A stretch of 64,000 nt of DNA from the NCBI GenBank assembly GCA_961205875.1, contig OY540813.1, forward strand, positions 26,817,001 to 26,881,000, read 5' to 3'. Every line of letters begins with the position of its first letter. Positions within the stretch are counted from its first letter, which is position 1. The stretch comes from Sialis fuliginosa. Its lineage: Eukaryota > Arthropoda > Insecta > Megaloptera > Sialidae. Shown here piece by piece: positions 6,583 to 64,000 of this stretch. The notes below the pieces were generated by a model. That model was given only the letters and a program-made list of their open reading frames with translations. It did no database searches and was not told where the DNA came from. The position numbers and the translations under genes are program-made.

Positions 6583-7056
6583 GATATGCTGAGGGCTTCA
6601 TTTTGGCACGATCCAAGAATATATTGGTATATATTATATTATATTTTTATATATTGTAATGTATTAATATGTTAATATATATATGACAATATATTATTAT
6701 ATATATTTATACCTTGTTATATATGTTAAGATATAAATATATATCATAATATATAGTAATATATTCTCGGATCGTGCCAAAATCAGGCCCTCAGCATATA
6801 TTAGTGTATATTATAATATATACTTATATCTTGTTATATATGTTAAGACATTAATATATATCATAATATATACAAATATATTCTCGGATCGTGCCAAAAT
6901 CAGGCTCGAGCATATATTATCATATATATTTATACCTTGTTATATATATTAAGATATAAATATATATTATAATATATACTTATACCTTGACATATATAAT
7001 AATTTATTAAAATGTATTTTTATGTTTTGTAATATATGCTGGGGGATCCAACTAAT
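6583..7056. repeat. Left subterminal AT-rich minisatellite
   Basis: Units of about 117 bp carry TCTCGGATCGTGCCAAAATC near 6765 and again near 6882, separated by alternating ATATATTA sequence. A copy in the opposite orientation lies at 6583-6624, so the block holds both tandem and inverted units and can form cruciforms. Confidence 0.75.
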
Positions 7057-7316
7057 TATTATATATCCTGACACCCCCAACGGAAATCGTCCACACACAC
7101 GAACCTTGGAACTCGTACTGGACCTATAAATAATGAAAATAGAAAAAATGGGTTTTTTAAAATAAAAATACAAATTCCCTGAACTGAATTTATTATACTG
7201 TGAAAATATTCATAAATAATACCATACAAATCTACATTCATAAAGTTAGACATAAAAAAGTTATAATCTTAAAAACTAAAAAATACTGAATTTGTTTTTA
7301 ACTTGATTTATATCTA

Positions 7317-8377: not shown

Positions 8378-9151
8378 AAGGTACTGGCACCAGTCTAGGA
8401 CAACACAGCAGTGGTGAATATTTTAAAATTAAATGTACTGAAATAGAAATATCCGTTGATGTTTGATTACTGCCGTTACTGGATATTAATCTATATTTTT
8501 TAGAACTGTCTTACAGCGTAATTTGACAATTCATCATTTTGTTTAAAAATAGTGGACAAATAAACGGCAGACTATCAAGAAAAATGTATTTTTTATGTAA
8601 ATGATTAGTGAAGTGAATATATTTAAAACATTTTTATGGAATTAAAATAACTGTTATAATGAAATTAAGAATTTCTTTTATGATATTTATATTACAAATT
8701 TATCCACAAAGATGTAAAAAAATTAAGAAAAGTTGTTTAAGTTGATAAAATTAAATCAAATTATAATATTTAATAATTTGGATCGTCCCGTATTAACTTT
8801 TTTATATCAAAAATATACAAAGAAAGAAATGAAAAATTAGTGATCGGTATTTACGATTTTGTATGAATTGAGAGTAAAATTTAAAAAAAATTAATAACTT
8901 GATCAAGTGTTCACCACTGGGTGCCCATTACTGGTTTTATGTTGTTCACTATTGGAGAAAAAACATCAACGAAATAATAAGCTATAAAAAAAGAATATAT
9001 ATCTGCGGACTTTGGTAATTAAATTGATTTAATAAAGGGGTAGTTAGTTGTTTCATTAGTAACATGAGTTTATGAGAATTACAAAAAAGAAGTCCATCAA
9101 TCCCAAAAAACAGTAAAACTTGCTCTTAAAATGTCCCAGACTGGTGCCTGT
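8378..9151 (-). mobile_element. GGTACTGG-ended repeat, copy A (reverse orientation)
   Basis: The unit begins AAGGTACTGGCACCAGTC and ends CAGACTGGTGCCTGTAT, giving short inverted ends. Its right part is the reverse complement of the copies at 23418-23952 and 34900-35458; for example, the block corresponding to AAGAGCAAGGTTTACTG is shared. This copy is about 770 bp, against about 540-560 bp for the other two, so it has extra sequence or is nearer full length. No coding sequence is visible and the TSD is unclear. Confidence 0.75.
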
Positions 9152-11399: not shown

Positions 11400-12260
11400 A
11401 TTATTATTATATTATAATGTATGATTATCTATTATCATATATATCTATGTGCAAATATATATAACAATATATTTTCGGAGCTGAGGGTTAATATATGTTA
11501 AGGTATGATAATATATTATCAGATATGTCTATATATTAATATATATAACGATATATTTTGGGCTCTGAGGGTTGATATATATATTAACACATCGCTACAT
11601 ATTATCAGATATGTCTATATATTAAAATATATAACGATATATTTTGAGCTCTGAGGGTTAATATATATATTAAGACATCGCTATATATTATCAGATATGT
11701 CTATATATTAATATATATAACGATATATTAATATACATAACGATATATTTTGAGCTCTGAGGATTGATATATATATTAAGACATCGATATATATTATCAG
11801 ATATGTCAATATATTAATATATATTACGATATATTTTCAGCTCTGAGGGTTGATATATATATTAAGACATCGCTATATATTATCAGATATGTCAATATAT
11901 TAATATATATTACGATATATTTAGAGCTCTGAGGGTTTATATATTTATTAAGACATCGCTATATATTATCAGATATATTAATATATAAATATATATTATA
12001 ATATATTCTTGCATCTGTAGACTGATATATACTGATATATTACTATATATTATGAGATATATTAATATATTAATATATATTTAAAATAAATGTATATTAA
12101 GACATAACCATATATTATCAGACATTTCTTTGTATAAGTATATATAACAATATATTTTAAGCTCTTTATATTAAGATATTACTATACATTATCAGACATA
12201 TCGACATATAGTAATATATTTTTGGCTCAAAAATTAATATATTACCATATATAACGATAT
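11400..12260. repeat. Right subterminal AT-rich minisatellite, about 86-bp units
   Basis: The CTGAGG landmark recurs near 11480, 11565, 11651, 11757, 11842 and 11929. The period is about 85-87 bp, with one unit lengthened by about 17 bp through an internal duplication of the ATATATAACGATATATT segment. Each unit carries GAGCTCTGAGGGTT, then AAGACATCGCTATATATTAT and CAGATATGTC. Units decay toward the right end of the enclosing element. Confidence 0.85.
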
Positions 12261-12311
12261 GCGAACATATCTTATAATATATCGTTATATATTATCATTT
12301 TTTCCCGGGTA

Positions 12312-22168: not shown

Positions 22169-22233
22169 ACTGATATTTATTTTTCTGTTACAGGTACGTT
22201 TCATACAAAGAAAAAAATAGACCAGAATCAGGT
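22169..22233 (+). promoter_or_regulatory. Candidate recursive splice site or 38-nt microexon
   Basis: On the + strand a CTGAT branch-point match (A at 22173) and a T-rich tract lead to TTACAG ending at 22193. This is followed at once by GTACGT at 22194, so a 3' and a 5' splice site share one junction. A second 5' site, CAG|GTAAAA, lies 38 bases on (GT at 22232-22233). Recursive sites with a downstream exon-defining 5' site are known from long introns of Drosophila and vertebrates. Alternatively the 38 bases are a microexon: one frame reads YVSYKEKNRPES without a stop. I do not recognise the peptide. The signal is seen; the function is inferred. Confidence 0.4.
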
Positions 22234-23417
22234 AAAAAATAAAATTCAAACATTCAGAATTTAGAAGCTTTGGAGATACATACATTTTAATATAAATAAA
22301 TAATGATTTAATTTCTGTATTTAATCGAAATTGTTAATTCCAATATAATTGTTTGTTAAATACAGAAGTTAAATATTATAATGATGATATAAAACACAAA
22401 CTAATTACTTTGATATCATATTTCAAATAAATAAATTTTCTAAAATGAAAAGATATATTTGTTTTATAACTTGTAATAAAAAATACTTTTTTTTAACTTT
22501 TAACTATAAAAAGTGAGTTAATATTAAAATCAATGTAATTTAAATCAATATAACTCCGGTACCAATAATTAATCTCAAACTTATATTAAAACTTAAAATC
22601 TGGCTACGTGCCTGTATAAACTAAATCATATATATTGCAGACAGAAAATATATTAATAAATATTTAAAAAAATATATAGGTAGATACATTTAAAAATATC
22701 CCCTTTACATATTTAAATCTAAAAATATGTATTACATTAAAATTGCTAATACCGTGGTGTCACATTTATAGTTTATGATAACCACATAAATCTTAAAACT
22801 GGTATATGTATTTTTTTCTGCTGGACGAGTTTTTGTTCCTGACGTTACTCCAACAAACTAATGGACTAATTTATCAAACAGTCATCACTAATAATGCATT
22901 GTTAATTTTTCATACAACTCAAAGGTCAAGGGTAAACAATATATTTATTGTTGACTTCCGTTCTTTACCCTCATTAAACCGACATCCGTTCCGAGAATTG
23001 GTTATTATTGTTATGAATTACTGTTTGCTTTTCAATAATTAGGAAACATCTTATATATTACAATATTGCTTTATTTATTAAAATCGCACTTAATTAAAGT
23101 ATTATTCCGTATTTTCTTTTACTTAGTGCATATTGTTGAATTTTATATTAATTTAAAAATTGCGTCATACAATGTACCCTATACAGATTGATAAATAAGT
23201 TATTTTAATAAATTATTTTAAATGTTAACAATATATCCTAACTCTCAAGATATCCTAACCTAAAAGTTTCTAAAATGACAATTTTAAACATATTTATTAA
23301 TATATTACCAAACAGGCAATTTTTTCTAAAGTTTTCGTTCACGGTAACAAATAGTACTGTCTTTTTTCATTAAAATTAACTTTTCTTTTTGACTTTACGT
23401 TTTTTTTATCGAGATAT
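22234..23417. other. AT-rich sequence, nothing recognised
   Basis: The 78-codon frame at 22806-23042 matches no family I know. No repeats identified. Confidence 0.4.
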
Positions 23418-23952
23418 AAGGTACTGGTACCAGTTATAACCGCTGTAAGAGCAAGGTTTACTGTTTTTGTGATTGACGGGCTTCTTTTTTTATAATTCTC
23501 ATGAACTCATATTACTAATAAAACAAGTAACTCTTTATTTAACCAGTTTAATTACCAAAGTCTGCAAATATAGTTTGTTTTTTAAATTAAAGATTTATTT
23601 TGTTTATATTTTTTCTCTAGTAATGGATAATGTAAAACCAGTAATGAGTACGCAGTGATGGATACTTGCTAATGATTACAAAATAATAAGTACTGCAACA
23701 CAAAAGATATAAAAGAAAGAATTGTGAAATTTGAAACAATGTAAAGCTTTTGCTAAGATAATATAATATTTAATAAATAAATTATACTAATAATTAATTT
23801 AAATGTTCAACATTTTGACACCTATTGGCCGATTGTCATCAAATCACGTTGTAAGACAGTTAAATATGTAGTAGATTAATATTCAGAAATGGTAGTAATC
23901 AAATATCAACAAATATTTCTAATTCAGTCATATCCAAGACCGATGTCAGTAC
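23418..23952 (+). mobile_element. GGTACTGG-ended repeat, copy B
   Basis: Begins AAGGTACTGGTACCAGTTA and ends near GACCGATGTCAGTAC. It aligns with 34900-35458 along its whole length, apart from a short extra block near the right end of that copy, and in reverse with part of 8378-9151. The interior repeats the motif ACCAGTAATG. The short frame at 23473-23658 lies wholly inside the repeat and is not a gene. Confidence 0.85.
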
Positions 23953-34654: not shown

Positions 34655-35645
34655 CTAGACAAGATAAAAGATATGTTTCATCTTGTCTTGGTTTTTCTTA
34701 CTTAAGTCTATTCTTTCTTCTCAGTTTCGTCTCGCGAAAATGGAAGCTATCTCGTCTCGTACACTTAATCAAGATTTATTATGAGACCAAAAAATTTTAG
34801 ATCTCATATAATTAATTTTATTTTTCTAAAAAAATATTTCTTCCATCTATTTTTATGTAATAAACTAAGAAATATAACGAACCATATGTACATATAAAAT
34901 ACTGGCACCAGTTATAGCCGCTATAAGAGCAAGGTTTAATGTTTTTGTGATTGACGGGCTTATTTTTTGTAATTCTCATGAACTCATGTGACTAATAAAA
35001 CAAGTAACTCTTTATTTAATCAATTTAATTACCAAAATCCGCAAATATAGTTATTTTTTATTTTGTTTATGTTTTTTTTTCTCCAGTAATGGATAAAGTA
35101 AAACCAGTAATGAACACGCAGTGATGGACACTTGCTAATGATTATAAAATGATAAGTACTACGGCACAAAAAATATAAAAGAAAGAATCATTAAATTTGA
35201 AACAGTATAAAGCAGTTGCTATGATAATATAATAATTAATTAATTAATTATACTTACTAATAATTAGTTTAAATATCCACCATTTTGACACCTATTGACC
35301 TATTGTCATTAAATCACGCTGTAAGACAGTTAAATGTATATAGATTAATATTCAGAAATGGTAGTTATCAAATATCAACAAATATTTCTAATTCAATACA
35401 TTTAATTTAAAAAATATCCATTATTGGGGTCATATCCAAGACTGATGCCAGTACCTTATTTTATTTTACTTTAACTATACTGATAGTAAAATTTATTTAT
35501 TGATAATCCTTTAAACAGAGAATCGGCGAGACTCTCGATAAGACTTAAATAAAGTTGATATCGTTTCGTCTCGTCTCATCAAAATTGTAGACAGTCTCGT
35601 CTCGTTATAATTCAGCTGGTATCATCTCAATCTCATCTCGTCTGA
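34655..35645. mobile_element. hAT-like relic with TCTCG subterminal repeats, host of a nested repeat
   Basis: TCTCGTCTCGT motifs occur on both sides (about 34724-34770 and about 35565-35645, with CGTTTCGTCTCGTCTCATC near 35564) around a complete GGTACTGG-ended repeat. Arrays of short direct repeats under both ends resemble the CCGAAA arrays of the element at 509-2950. No clear terminal inverted repeat or TSD could be fixed, so the outer limits are approximate. Confidence 0.45.
34900..35458 (+). mobile_element. GGTACTGG-ended repeat, copy C
   Basis: Begins TACTGGCACCAGTTATAGCC and ends GACTGATGCCAGTACCTTA, giving inverted ends TAAGGTACTGGCAYCAGT. It is collinear with 23418-23952. It keeps a block before the right end (CCATTATTGGGGTCATATCC) that is partly missing from that copy. 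It lies inside the TCTCG-repeat element and is therefore younger than it. Confidence 0.85.
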
Positions 35646-40705: not shown

Positions 40706-41536
40706 CTACTAGCTGGGCCCACGCGGCTTCGCTCGCGTAGACTACGGAATTATTGTTTAGGATTTTTGAAAAATATAGTTTAATTAATTAAGTACAAACA
40801 CGATTAGTTATTATTGTAATAATAATTTATCAATACCTAAATTACCTAACAAAAACGAATCAGAAGAAAAAAGTACAAATAATTTGTGTTCTGTTTAAAT
40901 TTAAATGTTAATTATTGAAAACAAAATAAACACAAACGATCAGCCGAGGGACTCCGAATATCTACCGAGCGTACGCGAATCCAGTCTGATGTACTCGCTT
41001 CGATGCGGCACGACACCATACATTTAAGATGTTACCTTTATAAATATATTTTAAGATATTTTCTAAACTATACGACCAAATTGGATGCTGTAAAGGGCAA
41101 ACTATATCTACATTAAGTGCTTATGACGATGAAATCATTTATTTCGATATGGATTAATGTTTTGCAGGTCATAAGTCCATGTAAACAGAACCCAAATATT
41201 TTATGTTTTTTTTGTAACATAAAAGCAGTCATTGTGGCTAAAATATAAAAGTTAGACATATGGTGTCGCGGACTTAATTGAAGAACTTTTGATTCTACAC
41301 AATTCTTTATTACATTATTTTGTTCTATATTGAACGGTTTAGGCAGCGTATTACAAAACAGCGCGCCGACGGCAAAAATTTTTCCGACTTGATTTACTAT
41401 TATTGTCACTGCTTAGTTGTTATGTTATCTAACCTAAAAAAATATAGCCTATAACCTGGCCAGAGAACGTACCTATGAATTAAAAAAAAAACACATCAAT
41501 CGGATAAGTGGTTCTCGAGTGATAAGGTAACTAACG

Positions 41537-45700: not shown

Positions 45701-48066
45701 ATATTTCTATATTTTTCCTAAGATTGAAAAAATATTTTTCTTTAAAAAAAATAATTCTTTTTATATCCACAGCTTTTGCAAATAAATAAAAATCAGTAAC
45801 GCCACCACTGAGAGCTTTCATATACACATACAAGTACATCTATTACAAACACATGAACACTTTGGTGCATGTACATTACACATACAGCGACGCGAAGATC
45901 TCTTGGAACAAAACAATAGATGAATACAATGGCTGGTACATTCGTCGACTGTTGGGGATCAATAACATATTATAAATGTGTGTTCTATTCAAATTGATCA
46001 ATAGAAAGAGTGAGTGTGTGAGAGAGATGAGCGTACTTTAAACTCGCAAAGGGGAGATGAAAATTAGTTTACTATATATCCCTCTTTTATTGTTGAAAAT
46101 AGTTTTAAATTCCGTGGATTTTTATATTCAATATCAGCAATGTAGGGATTTTTTAATATAAAGTTTCACATTGAAATTGGGTCATATTAAAATCATTTTA
46201 TTAGTTTCTGATGTGACTATAAATAATTTTAAACTGTAAAGTATTTGGCAGTTAATTGAAATTTTTTCAGAGTTACTCTTTTAAAATTAAAATATCATAA
46301 TAATTACTATAATAACAAAATAAAAGATTGCTACAATTAATAATAGATATTATATTAATTATAATTTAGATTAGAAAATAATTAGAAATTATTTTCTCAT
46401 GGAAAGCAAACGCTAGATGACACGTTGCGTCATTTCATCTGCACCTGATTATTAAATACCAAGTACCGTTACTCGTAGCGGGACGTTAAACAAATCTACG
46501 CCCTTTAGACCTGTGGTTCTAAAAAGCTATAGTCAAAAATGTCTTTTAGCAAGTTTCCAAGTTTGAAATATGTTATAGTGACTTTTGGTTATTGGATAGA
46601 AGTCGTGTTTATGTATGATTCAATTTTTATTACGATTTCAATGATTAGTACCTAATGTCACCATAATAATAATAATATTTTAAGATATAAAAAATATTCA
46701 CAAAAAGTAGTACATTCGAGTATTTTGTTTTTTAAGCTGGAGGTCAAAAGTTATTTGAGAACTGCATTAATCCAACATTTAATGAATGTATTTATTCCGT
46801 TTAGAAAATACTCTTCTTTTTTTCCTTCAGATGCGAAAGATCGTGTGCTATAAATATTATTATTTTTACTATTTTTAACTTTCATCGTTATGATGTTTAT
46901 ATTTGTACATCCGGTAGTAAATTATATCTACATTTTTTGTGTCACTAATATCGTAGTTACATAAAATGCATATTTATAATTTCTAATAACTTTTCTTTAG
47001 TTGCATCTTGACTTTAACACCTTATTATCCAAGATTTGAAACATCGGGTATTTTTTTCAAAAACAGCTTAACATTTTTATTCAGCAAGAAAGCATCTTTC
47101 CAAAAAATGTAAAAATAGTAAAATAAAAAAAAATACAGTTGATTGATTCATATATGTCATCAAAAACATGGCGAAAAACCCTGAAAAATGATCTCAGATC
47201 TCTAAATTGAGCCGTTTATGGAAAAATTACCTTGCTCTTCGAAGCTGAAATGGCCTGTATATAAAATGAAATATTTAACTCAATTCATAAAAAAACCTTA
47301 AAATATGGATATAAAGATTAATTAAGAGGATACTTAATTAATTAAAATTATCGTACAGAATTATCATTAATAAAAAAGAGCAAAAAATAGTAACCATCTC
47401 ACATAAATTAATAATGAAAATTGTTAAAACAAATTTAAATGACATAATTGTTTTAAAGTGGGACAATTCATAATGAAGAGTTATTCGTACAATATGAATA
47501 TTAATACTTCCTCAATGACCTTTGCTTGACCTTCATGCTTGTATCCTCCTTAACCCTTTTAGTAAACTTTCAACGGGTAATTTAATCCATATTGTTATTT
47601 ATGCCTCATTAATTTGATTTTTTTCATTTGAAAATGACTGCTACTTTCATCCTAAAAATAAATTAAAATGAAACATACTTATAATAAATATAATTTATTT
47701 ATATACGTTGGTACCGCTTATTGATTATTGATATTAGGTACACAATTGTATAATGACATTTTAAGTATCTTCATTATAGTCACATTAACTCACCATTTAT
47801 ATTTATTTATTTATCTTTAAAATTAAAGTTTCTACAATAACTTTTATAACATTCGTAACATCTGTAATATGAAAATAAAGACAATCTGAGCTATGCATGT
47901 ACTTAAGTACTTTACTTAACACAATACACGTAAATAAGTATACATACAAACATGTCCTTAAATACTTTTTCAAAAATAGCAATTTTTACTTGTATATATA
48001 ATATATGTATTGAAAAGTAATTGTACTTATGTAGGTACTTTTATATTATGCATCAAAATTTAACTC
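42773..48066. other. AT-rich, mostly unique sequence
   Basis: No gene is identified. Less AT-rich pieces occur near 44240-44360 (CTCAGGGGAGTTTCGCCTC), 45830-46030 (CA- and GA-rich) and 46420-46530 (GTTACTCGTAGCGGGACGTT). None gives a frame or structure I can name. A strong 3' splice-like sequence (TTTTTTTCCTTCAG at 46829) is not followed by a good 5' site. Confidence 0.4.
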
Positions 48067-54301: not shown

Positions 54302-55110
54302 CAGGTTGTCTCGTAAACATACCGACAAACTTTCAGGAGTTGACACTAAACAATCGCTTTTTGTTAATAAACTCATGTTCGCAAACGAGTCGTTCAAAAG
54401 AAAGGACCCCGCACAAAAGCAATGGACTTTGCTTTTTGGTTGAAATTTTTTATAACTTAGGAAAATGATAGTTCAAAGTATGCTGATCAAAAGTTGTAAT
54501 GGGTGCAACATACGAAAATCCATAATTTCTGCTCCGAAGGACACCCAAACATTCTATGTTTATGTTTATTTCTATGTTTATCTCCTAAAGGATAAATTAA
54601 ACTTTTGAAAAGAATAAAGAGTTGTTAAAACTAGTCAAACAATGTAAAGAAAAAAATTTTAGAATTTTTTATAACATTTATTGATTTTATAAAAAGTGCC
54701 CAACCAAAAATCTAAAAAATGACGTCAAAGGTTCTAAATTAAGTATTTGTATTCATTTACTAATTTGAAGCACTTTTTATTCTTTGCAAATTTTTCCAAA
54801 AGTTGACCCTTTAGGACTAGGAGATAAAAATAAAAATAAATATAAACATAAATCATGTAAAAACATACAATACTTGGAGCACAAATAATGGATTTTCATA
54901 TGTTGCACCCTTTACAACTTTTGATCAGCACACTTTGAACTATCATTTCCACACAAAAAGTCAACCAAAAGGTAGAATTAATTACTTTTTGTAGGGTCTC
55001 TTATTTTGCTCTACTGCCAAATTCTGGCATGGGTTTACTAACAAAAAACGATTGTTTTGATGTTTTCTACAATTCCTAAAAGTTTATCAATATGTTAACG
55101 GTACATTCTG
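54302..55110. mobile_element. Mariner-like MITE with about 340-bp inverted arms
   Basis: The left end CAGGTTGTCTCGTAAACATA and the right end, complement CAGAATGTACCGTTAACATA, are flanked by TA (54300-54301 and 55111-55112). The inverted similarity then runs inward for several hundred bases, including AAACTTTCAGGAGTTG, CTGATCAAAAGTTGTAA and the TTTATGTTTATTT blocks. The arms have diverged clearly, so this is an old insertion. The CAGGGTGTCCCGTAAAC-type end is typical of mariner-related insect MITEs. Short frames across the left border (54059-54397) are chance. Confidence 0.85.
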
Positions 55111-55387: not shown

Positions 55388-55460
55388 TTAATTTTTCCCT
55401 TCTCTTGTTTCAGGTATGCAGACTTATGGTCACACAATATAATAATATAATTTTTTGGTA
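55388..55460 (+). promoter_or_regulatory. Candidate recursive splice site or 44-nt microexon
   Basis: A TTAAT branch-point match and the long pyrimidine tract TTTTTCCCTTCTCTTGTTTC lead to an AG at 55412-55413, followed immediately by GTATGC. A good 5' site, G|GTAAGA, lies 44 bases on (GT at 55458-55459). The arrangement matches the site at 22193/22194 on the same strand, 33 kb upstream. One of three frames through the 44 bases is open (VCRLMVTQYNNIIF). I read this as a possible ratchet point of a long + strand intron; chance cannot be excluded. Confidence 0.45.
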
Positions 55461-61450: not shown

Positions 61451-64000
61451 TGAAGCGGGCACATCTGTTTGGTAAGCCCTGCGTCAATGTAGATTATGGA
61501 TGGAGTTCACAGCTATCTCGGAAATGCGATACTAATTGTGTCAAGTTGCGGAACTAAAGTTATATATCAACATAATAACTATCCACCAAATTAGATTTTA
61601 ATTGTTTGTTCAATAAGTGTATTCGGTCATTACATTGTAATCTCCTCATACGTTATCAATCATGTTTCGTGACTCGCGTTTCTTTTTTTGTATTTGTAAA
61701 ACGTTGTTCGTGCTACCGAAAGGTTATGTTGTTTAATGGAAATCGGGAATTGATGTTTTCCGCTGCAATATTAATTCTGCTGTTCTAAAAATACATTGTA
61801 AATGTTATCCGATGTTGTAAAATACGTTTTAATTTAATTGATTGTGCATTGGTGAATTGTGACGTTTTGATTATCCAATTAAATTAATTTGTTTTGATCC
61901 GAGTCAATATGTGTTGAAAATTGATTCTACTTGAAACTGATTTTATTGATTTTGATAAAACTTTTTGTTACTGTTATTGTTGTATAACAGATCGGAAATA
62001 GAAAGCATGGAAAATTATATGAATTATATTAGGTGTGTATAATTGTTTTAAATCTGTACTTTTTATTGTATTCTATAAAAACATTATAAAGTGAATTGTC
62101 ACTAAACAAAACTAAATAAAATAAAATTGCAACCATGCAAGGCAATAAAAATGAATGAGGAAATAAATTTAAAATATAAAATAACCAATTTGTTAATTCT
62201 TCATTCATATATAATTTCTATTATCATATTAATTTTGACCTTAAGCAAATTAAATATTAGTAAATGAATGAGTAAATACTGTGATTCTATATGTAAATAT
62301 AGTTAGTAAAGATGTCACGTGGTTTTCTTAGCAGAATATTGAGCTCAAGAGGTTAAAACAGTCATTACAATTAAGCATGATTAAGTTTACTTTTTAATCA
62401 CAACGAAAGTTTAATTGCAATTTCCTCGACTCTTGTATAAAGTTGTGCGAGGTGAGAATGAGGTAAAGAGGGTTGGAAAGAAATAAAATGTATTGTCTAG
62501 ACCGTGTTTCGAAATAAATGAGTTTAAGAACAATTTTAACAAGACTTAAATACATTTATTCTGTGTAATGAAGAAATCGATATACCTTATTGTTTGTTAT
62601 ATTTTTTTGTATAGCAGAAACATTAAGAATTAAGAATTATAAAACTAATCACGTAGCTATCTTTTTAACTTGGTGGAGGCTCGAAATTTAGTCTGTGATA
62701 TTTCTAAATGGGGCAATAATAAACCCAACTTTCCTATTTGTGTAATATATAATATATAATTATAAATTTTATAGTTTTTACATATTTTGTAATAATAAAA
62801 TAAAGTCAGATTATTAATAAAATACTTATGCAGATTTACTTTTATTTTCATATTTATGCATGCATTTTTAAAGAAAACATTTCACATTATACATAGATAG
62901 AAACGACGATAAAAAATAAACAGCCAATTAGCATCTGACGTCACTAACAAAATAAAACTCTTATTTAATCTATTTTAATAGACGAAATAATGGTACGCTA
63001 AACATATGATTCATTCTTAATTTCTATAACAAACATTTTCTTATTTGAATAGTACTGTACATAATTGTACATACTTAACAAATGATTATTTTTTAAATTT
63101 GTTGATACTTTTCATTATCCTATTTACAAAGTATGCTTATAAACTAAAAAAAATATTTTCTTGGTTTATGTCAGTTAGCATTTTTAGGTTTGAATATCTC
63201 GAAAACTGACATGATAAAGCAGCTTGCAAACACTGTAATCGTGGATCGTGAGTCAAAGAAAAGCAGTCGTGAGAAACTGTGCGTGATTACATGTTTGCCG
63301 GGCGTGAGTCCATGAATATATTACTTTAAAAATGTACTAATGCTTCGTTTTCTTTTCTTTTTATTTTCATGTTCTCAAAAAATTGTATATTGTAATACCG
63401 TCGAAAAATCGTGGCCAATATACGAGCAGATTCTGATTGTACTAACTTCAAAACGTAAAGAAAAGTTACTTTCCACATGGCAGCTGTGCGTGTATCTGTG
63501 TCTGTGCCTTTGTGTGTCTACTATAAAAATGCACCGATCTGAATTATTTTTAGAGAACATGTTTGTCTCAGTGAGTATATTGAATTTGGTGCTAATCGGA
63601 TTGGAAGGGTTTGGAAATATTCGAAATTTTGTAATTTTTATCGTCTAAAAAGTGAACGTTGCGAGTATTATTTCTTTAATTTTGATAAGGCTTGGTACAT
63701 TTGTAGTTCAGTTGAACCTTAGGGACATGTGTTAATTGTTTGTGCCTAGACAGCTATTGAAGGGGTGAAAACCGCCCTCAAAATTTGAATTTTAAATACT
63801 AATTAATACGTCACTAATTCATGTTTTTTTGGAAACAAATACAACTAAATTCTAATTGTCAAATTAGTTATTCTACGAATCTGTATTATGTTTTTGACAT
63901 CAGAACATTAGGAAACTAATATTTATATAAATAAATAAATCCCATTGAAATTTTTCATATATTAAAAATTATTTAATAAGATATTAAAGCACATGGAAAT
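61451..64000. other. AT-rich sequence, no recognised gene
   Basis: A 102-codon frame at 63340-63648 (+) starts with a hydrophobic stretch that could mimic a signal peptide (LRFLFFLFSC), but the rest matches no family I know. A frame of this size is expected about once by chance in such a window. No repeat pair was found. Confidence 0.4.

Follow-up and report, generated by a model that had tools for sequence, protein, structure and literature searches.

A candidate pair of ratchet-point splice sites with short putative RS-exons in a 64-kb stretch of AT-rich insect DNA

Background

Does the AG/GT junction at 55413/55414 of this DNA, which is preceded on the forward (+) strand by a long pyrimidine tract, mark a point at which one long intron is removed in steps? 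The question arises from the earlier note, in which the junction was described as the second of two sites that share a strand and a layout, tens of kilobases apart. In Drosophila, ratchet points are described as enclosing a cryptic RS-exon of variable length (~50 nt), generally out of frame and with its own downstream donor, which is the first to be recognised but in most cases is taken out again, the ratchet donor outcompeting the exon donor (PMC8605326). According to the description in PMC6110457, typical fly recursive segments measure 9-15 kb and fly ratchet sites generally score above 0.85. Recursive splicing is also treated in PMC13105047.

For insects other than flies, PMC2773006 was the one report on recursive splicing that we found among the papers listed, and others may exist. 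The densities given there for large introns are 2.2 RP-sites per 100 kb in the fly, 1.0 in the mosquito, 0.81 in the beetle and 0.48 in the bee, with 0-0.12 per 100 kb on the complement strand of those introns; for vertebrate introns the same source gives almost no RP-site excess. In mammals, PMC8605326 counts possibly more than 6,400 expressed RS-exons and few suppressed intronic ones. In this paper, we report a computational analysis of the junction at 55414 and of its surroundings in the window, by which we mean the whole stretch of 64,000 nucleotides from which the site was taken; all positions are those of the window.

Methods

Splice signals were scored with approximate insect-like matrices, which were not trained on this genome. 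The background-corrected score is a log-odds score against the base composition of the window itself (27% GC). A normalised score without background correction was modelled on the description in PMC6110457, with approximate frequencies in place of the published matrix. Since the frequencies are approximate, results with perturbed and alternative matrices are reported as well.

The randomised windows comprised dinucleotide shuffles, Markov sequences of several orders and shuffles inside blocks of 200 bp or 1,000 bp, the block shuffles preserving local T-richness. Whether a randomised window with a site as good as 55414 held one such site or more was read from the means of each set.

Results

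Across the junction the + strand reads TTTTTCCCTTCTCTTGTTTCAG followed directly by GTATGC, as read from the window, and a second donor, TTG/GTAAGA, has its GT at 55458, which leaves 44 nt (55414-55457) between the junction and this donor; the sequence and coordinates reported earlier for the site are thus right. The closest AG upstream of the acceptor is 117 nt away. Branch points follow the consensus YTNAY, of which a candidate match lies upstream of each of the two junctions listed in Table 1. The tract had been called the best in the window, which is nearly right: the acceptor ranks third among the 2,480 AG dinucleotides on the + strand, behind those at 46831 (14.7 bits) and 35087 (14.3 bits), and one of the 2,713 on the minus strand (33192, 13.5 bits) is also higher.

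The proposed partner, expected on the same strand about 33 kb upstream, we take to be the best other site of that strand, at 22194, where TTTTTCTGTTACAG is followed directly by GTACGT on the + strand, 33,220 bp 5' of 55414. This GTACGT is the top-scoring donor among the 3,225 GT dinucleotides of the strand. The AG-free stretch before the partner is 47 nt; before AGGT sites in general such stretches have a median of 17 nt and reach at least 40 nt at 23.6% of sites. Both sites are followed by a donor of at least 6.5 bits, 38 nt downstream at 22194 and 44 nt downstream at 55414, and a donor of this strength lies 30-60 nt 3' of 4.7% of + strand positions, which is the chance for each site under a cut-off and a distance range that were picked after the sites had been seen. 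Stronger donors follow further 3', at +155 of 55414 (7.8 bits) and at +319 of 22194 (8.6 bits), so that the choice of the end of each RS-exon is not forced.

Table 1. Splice signals and candidate RS-exons at the two sites (positions in the window)
Feature	Start	End	Strand	Score or remark
Candidate branch point CTGAT (partner)	22170	22174	+	24 nt 5' of the junction
3' splice acceptor, pyrimidine tract and CAG (partner)	22174	22193	+	11.3 bits
Putative ratchet-point donor GTACGT (partner)	22194	22199	+	12.4 bits
Candidate cryptic RS-exon, 38 nt (partner)	22194	22231	+	Not a multiple of three; two of three frames open
Putative RS-exon donor GTAAAA (partner)	22232	22237	+	6.6 bits
Candidate branch point TTAAT	55388	55392	+	26 nt 5' of the junction; matches YTNAY
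3' splice acceptor, polypyrimidine tract and CAG	55392	55413	+	13.3 bits (maximum 16.1)
Putative ratchet-point donor GTATGC	55414	55419	+	10.3 bits after CAG; intron part alone 5.7
Candidate cryptic RS-exon, 44 nt	55414	55457	+	Not divisible by three; one open frame out of three
Putative RS-exon donor GTAAGA	55458	55463	+	7.2 bits with TTG; intron part alone 7.3

The sequences of the two sites, their scores, the strand on which they lie and their rarity in randomised sequence are direct observations. With the corrected score, a strong acceptor and a strong donor are juxtaposed around the AG/GT at 55414 (19.0 bits), which ranks second among the 250 AGGT sites found on the two strands; 22194 is first at 19.1 bits, and the next are 41472 on the minus strand (15.2 bits) and 438 on the + strand (12.8 bits). 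A site as good as 55414 on either strand appeared in 4 of 300 dinucleotide shuffles and in 2 of 200 third-order Markov windows. In sets of 150 windows each, Markov orders 1, 3 and 5 gave 3, 6 and 1 windows at this level, and shuffles inside blocks of 200 bp and 1,000 bp gave 4 and 2 windows of 200. When all randomised windows are pooled, 22 of 1,350 held one site that good and none held two; the tally of two such sites on one strand was 0 of 450 for the Markov orders and 0 of 400 for the block shuffles. Across the six kinds of randomisation the expectation is 0.007-0.04 sites per window.

When the AGGT core was permuted under the same flank model, none of 2,958 sites with 11 other cores reached the flank score of 55414, which 2 of the 250 AGGT sites do. 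In the complemented window the flank score had a maximum of 6.3 over 135 sites, and in the reversed window 1 of 151 sites came just under 55414 (10.0 vs 10.3). Two 50-kb stretches of AT-rich phage DNA (27-28% GC, 578 AGGT sites) reached a maximum of 15.7 bits. Perturbation of the matrices with background correction left both sites at ranks 1 and 2 in 680 of 1,000 trials, and with a flat or a vertebrate-like tract model 55414 keeps rank 1 or 2.

The normalised score without correction gave a different order: 22194 scored 0.899, 41472 on the minus strand 0.872 and 55414 0.835, the third of 250. Measured against the fly level of 0.85, 22194 lies above and 55414 below, on approximate frequencies in place of the published matrix. 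Random windows hold 1.1-1.3 sites each at 0.835 or higher, compared with 3 observed, and 55414 is therefore not clearly above chance under this score. Perturbed matrices without correction placed both sites at ranks 1 and 2 in 108 of 1,000 trials, with the same outcome under stronger perturbation. The minus-strand site at 41472 ranks third with correction and second without it, and it too is followed by a donor-like GT, at +39, which is weak (4.7 bits).

The expectations about the site thus depend on the score that is chosen. That the minus strand holds no equally good site is true with correction, under which 41472 falls below 55414, but not without it, since 41472 then takes second place. 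Likewise, the comparison with shuffled AT-matched sequence leaves 55414 standing by the corrected score and comes close to refuting it by the uncorrected one. For AT-rich DNA we regard the corrected score as the better guide to chance, because T is cheap in such DNA and the C residues in the tract of 55414 are informative. The disagreement between the two scores is nonetheless real, and it counts against the finding.

The window as a whole has a GC content of 27% and an observed/expected CpG ratio of 1.15. No Rfam family was found in it at gathering score, and no tRNA. Of its 920 ORFs of at least 30 aa, 233 stop-to-stop ORFs (144 + 89) were scanned against Pfam and gave no credible match to a coding domain; the 13 families returned, with one row each and E values of 0.005-0.045, are at about the level of chance for 233 scans. 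The absence of a credible coding domain among the ORFs scanned fits what is expected inside a long intron, and the window has the look of a stretch from an AT-rich animal genome that lies in a long intron or between genes. A candidate exon on the + strand at 63175-63303 (129 nt, 41% GC) has fair splice signals and an open frame, and no match to it was found in Pfam or among solved structures.

Acceptors of at least 10 bits number 23 on the + strand and 9 on the minus strand (binomial p 0.02; 0.04 if the two sites are left out). In 60 third-order Markov windows the means were 14 on the + strand and 13 on the minus strand, and because the + strand count reached 26 in these windows, the excess is a weak hint. 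Base and strand skews are slight, and as their sign varies from one part of the window to another, they do not settle the strand. AATAAA occurs in similar numbers on the two strands (208 vs 223).

Repeats are present in several parts of the window. A perfect inverted repeat of 350 nt, with arms at 1043-1392 and 2121-2470 and 728 nt between them, resembles a young element of the fold-back or terminal-inverted-repeat type, and the ORFs scanned from 1043-2470 gave no credible Pfam match. AT-rich tandem arrays lie at 6619-7061 and 11405-12282; near 11.4-12.1 kb the arrays repeat with periods of 20, 86, 106 and 192 nt, and the word GAGCTCTGAGG recurs in them. A dispersed repeat of ~520 nt, probably a transposable element family, occurs at 23407-23926 and 34885-35395 and in the opposite orientation at 8421-9109, with pieces 84-98% alike and an inverted copy 72-86% alike; the strong + strand acceptor at 35087 sits inside one of these copies. 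A MITE-like element at 54463-54948, with 73-nt inverted repeats that are 93% complementary, ends ~470 bp 5' of 55414.

A transposon origin of the two sites was considered and rejected. Neither lies within any of the direct-repeat families reported (repeats of at least 40 nt; 25 of the 39 inverted pairs were listed), and their flanks, 400 bp on each side, share short matches only, of which the longest measures 17 nt and is in opposite orientation. An exact-match search for the site patterns found none in viral_contigs or genome_contigs.

Discussion

We consider it probable, with appreciable room for doubt, that 55414 and 22194 both act as ratchet points within a single long intron of the + strand and would be used through the known RS-exon mechanism. 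The intron, its strand, the use of the sites and the order of the steps are what we infer from these signals. Under this mechanism, the spliceosome would first recognise the short RS-exon, which has 38 nt at 22194 and 44 nt at 55414, through its acceptor and downstream donor, and the upstream exon would be joined to it. In the joined product a donor would be rebuilt where the RS-exon begins, GTACGT at 22194 and GTATGC at 55414, and this donor would serve the next step, in which the RS-exon would be removed together with the next piece of the intron. Because the rebuilt donor would be the one used next, the RS-exon would leave and the mRNA would carry no trace of it.

Such a course depends on the competition between the two donors of each RS-exon, the stronger of which mostly decided the outcome in the fly genes Bx and kuz according to PMC8605326. 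At 55414 the competition is close. The ratchet donor is ahead of the RS-exon donor by the full matrix after CAG (10.3 vs 7.2 bits) and after an exon end of the AAG type (8.9 vs 7.2 bits), and behind by the intron part (5.7 vs 7.3 bits) and by computed U1 pairing (-7.2 vs -8.0 kcal/mol); it is therefore the weaker by two of three measures and the stronger only where the upstream exon ends like CAG or AAG. For 22194 the matrix puts the ratchet donor clearly ahead (intron part 7.8 vs 2.0), while computed U1 pairing slightly favours the RS-exon donor (-7.9 vs -8.3 kcal/mol). The near balance at 55414 would suit either a ratchet point with occasional exon inclusion or an ordinary exon whose first two letters are GT. 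The 44 nt may at times be kept in the mRNA, which would change the reading frame if 55414 is in coding sequence.

The second of these readings takes 55414-55457 as an ordinary internal or alternative + strand exon (in a UTR, as a poison exon or in a long non-coding RNA) whose GTATGC is unused as a donor. The pairing of a 13.3-bit acceptor with a 7.2-bit donor 44 nt away, which places it among 10 candidate exons in the window that pass threshold, speaks for it, as does the advantage of the exon donor over the inner one by intron part and U1 pairing. It leaves the same-strand site of the same layout at 22194 unexplained, however, and a segment that is not a multiple of three, with one open frame, does not suit a coding cassette; we hold this explanation to be unlikely. 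Chance also seems unlikely. DNA rich in AT and in T-runs yields an occasional good AG/GT, the scan picked the best, and the region may not be transcribed at all; selection is to be expected when many windows and many kinds of feature are scanned. The uncorrected expectation of more than one such site per window, the higher rank of the minus-strand site and the near-equal flank score in reversed sequence all agree with it, whereas the corrected rates under six randomisations, the lack of paired sites in all 1,350 windows and the permuted cores argue against it.

A rather unlikely reading is that 22194 is the sole ratchet point, with 55414 a decoy or an unrelated exon, or that the two sites belong to different genes. 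In its favour, 22194 is high on both scores and has the strongest donor of the + strand, 55414 falls short of 0.85, the level above which fly sites generally lie, and a single segment of 33 kb would be long. Against this, 55414 has the better acceptor (13.3 vs 11.3 bits) and the stronger RS-exon donor (7.2 vs 6.6 bits). As this reading overlaps with both the ordinary exon and chance, the probabilities that we attach to the alternatives do not sum to one.

If the two sites are indeed ratchet points of one intron, they would provide a specific and testable pair of recursive splice sites with full RS-exon anatomy in an AT-rich genome, one of them with nearly balanced competing donors, and further evidence that recursive splicing through exon definition is shared beyond flies. 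The mechanism as known would stay unchanged. Recursive splicing is already an established process in flies, and for other insects it has been predicted by computation. We regard as improbable the further proposal that 55414 is a recursive splice site acting as a switch, through which a long intron regulates its gene in a lineage outside flies. In such a switch, the intron would be ratcheted out when GTATGC wins, and a frame-shifting exon of 44 nt would be kept in the mRNA, silencing the host gene, when GTAAGA wins.

Comparison with known systems

In human data, the sequence features of lariat reads, taken by themselves, gave more false calls than expected according to PMC10156609, and this caution applies to the present pair too. 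The sites resemble vertebrate RS-exons, cryptic or annotated, as described in PMC6224609, in that exon definition would be followed by a choice between the donor at the start and the donor at the end of the exon. According to PMC8605326 mammals may have many expressed RS-exons, whereas those proposed here are candidates drawn from sequence.

The mosquito, the honey bee, the flour beetle and the sea urchin offer a second comparison, since the excess of sites on one strand, in a long stretch where no coding is recognisable, is like that reported for these animals in PMC2773006. Two sites on the + strand of these 64 kb, and none on the minus strand, agree better with the sense strand of a large intron than with its complement or with intergenic DNA, the thresholds used here differing from those of that study. 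The counts given there come from annotated introns and were made with different matrices and cut-offs, with, as far as that description goes, no coverage of RS-exons; here the intron itself is part of the proposal.

The closest likeness is to the ratchet points of Drosophila, such as those of Ubx, kuz and Bx (PMC8605326, PMC6110457). Going by these descriptions, the pair departs from them in its donors, which are GTACGT and GTATGC where the fly consensus is GTAAGT, in the close or reversed donor competition at 55414 and in a spacing of 33 kb compared with ~9-15 kb. The present sites, which are predicted ones, also lie in an AT-rich genome. In common with the ratchet points described for Drosophila, they have an acceptor and a donor juxtaposed around AG/GT, a short exon that is not a multiple of three (38 and 44 nt here, ~50 nt in the fly) with a donor just 3' of it, and an arrangement of two sites on one strand tens of kilobases apart.
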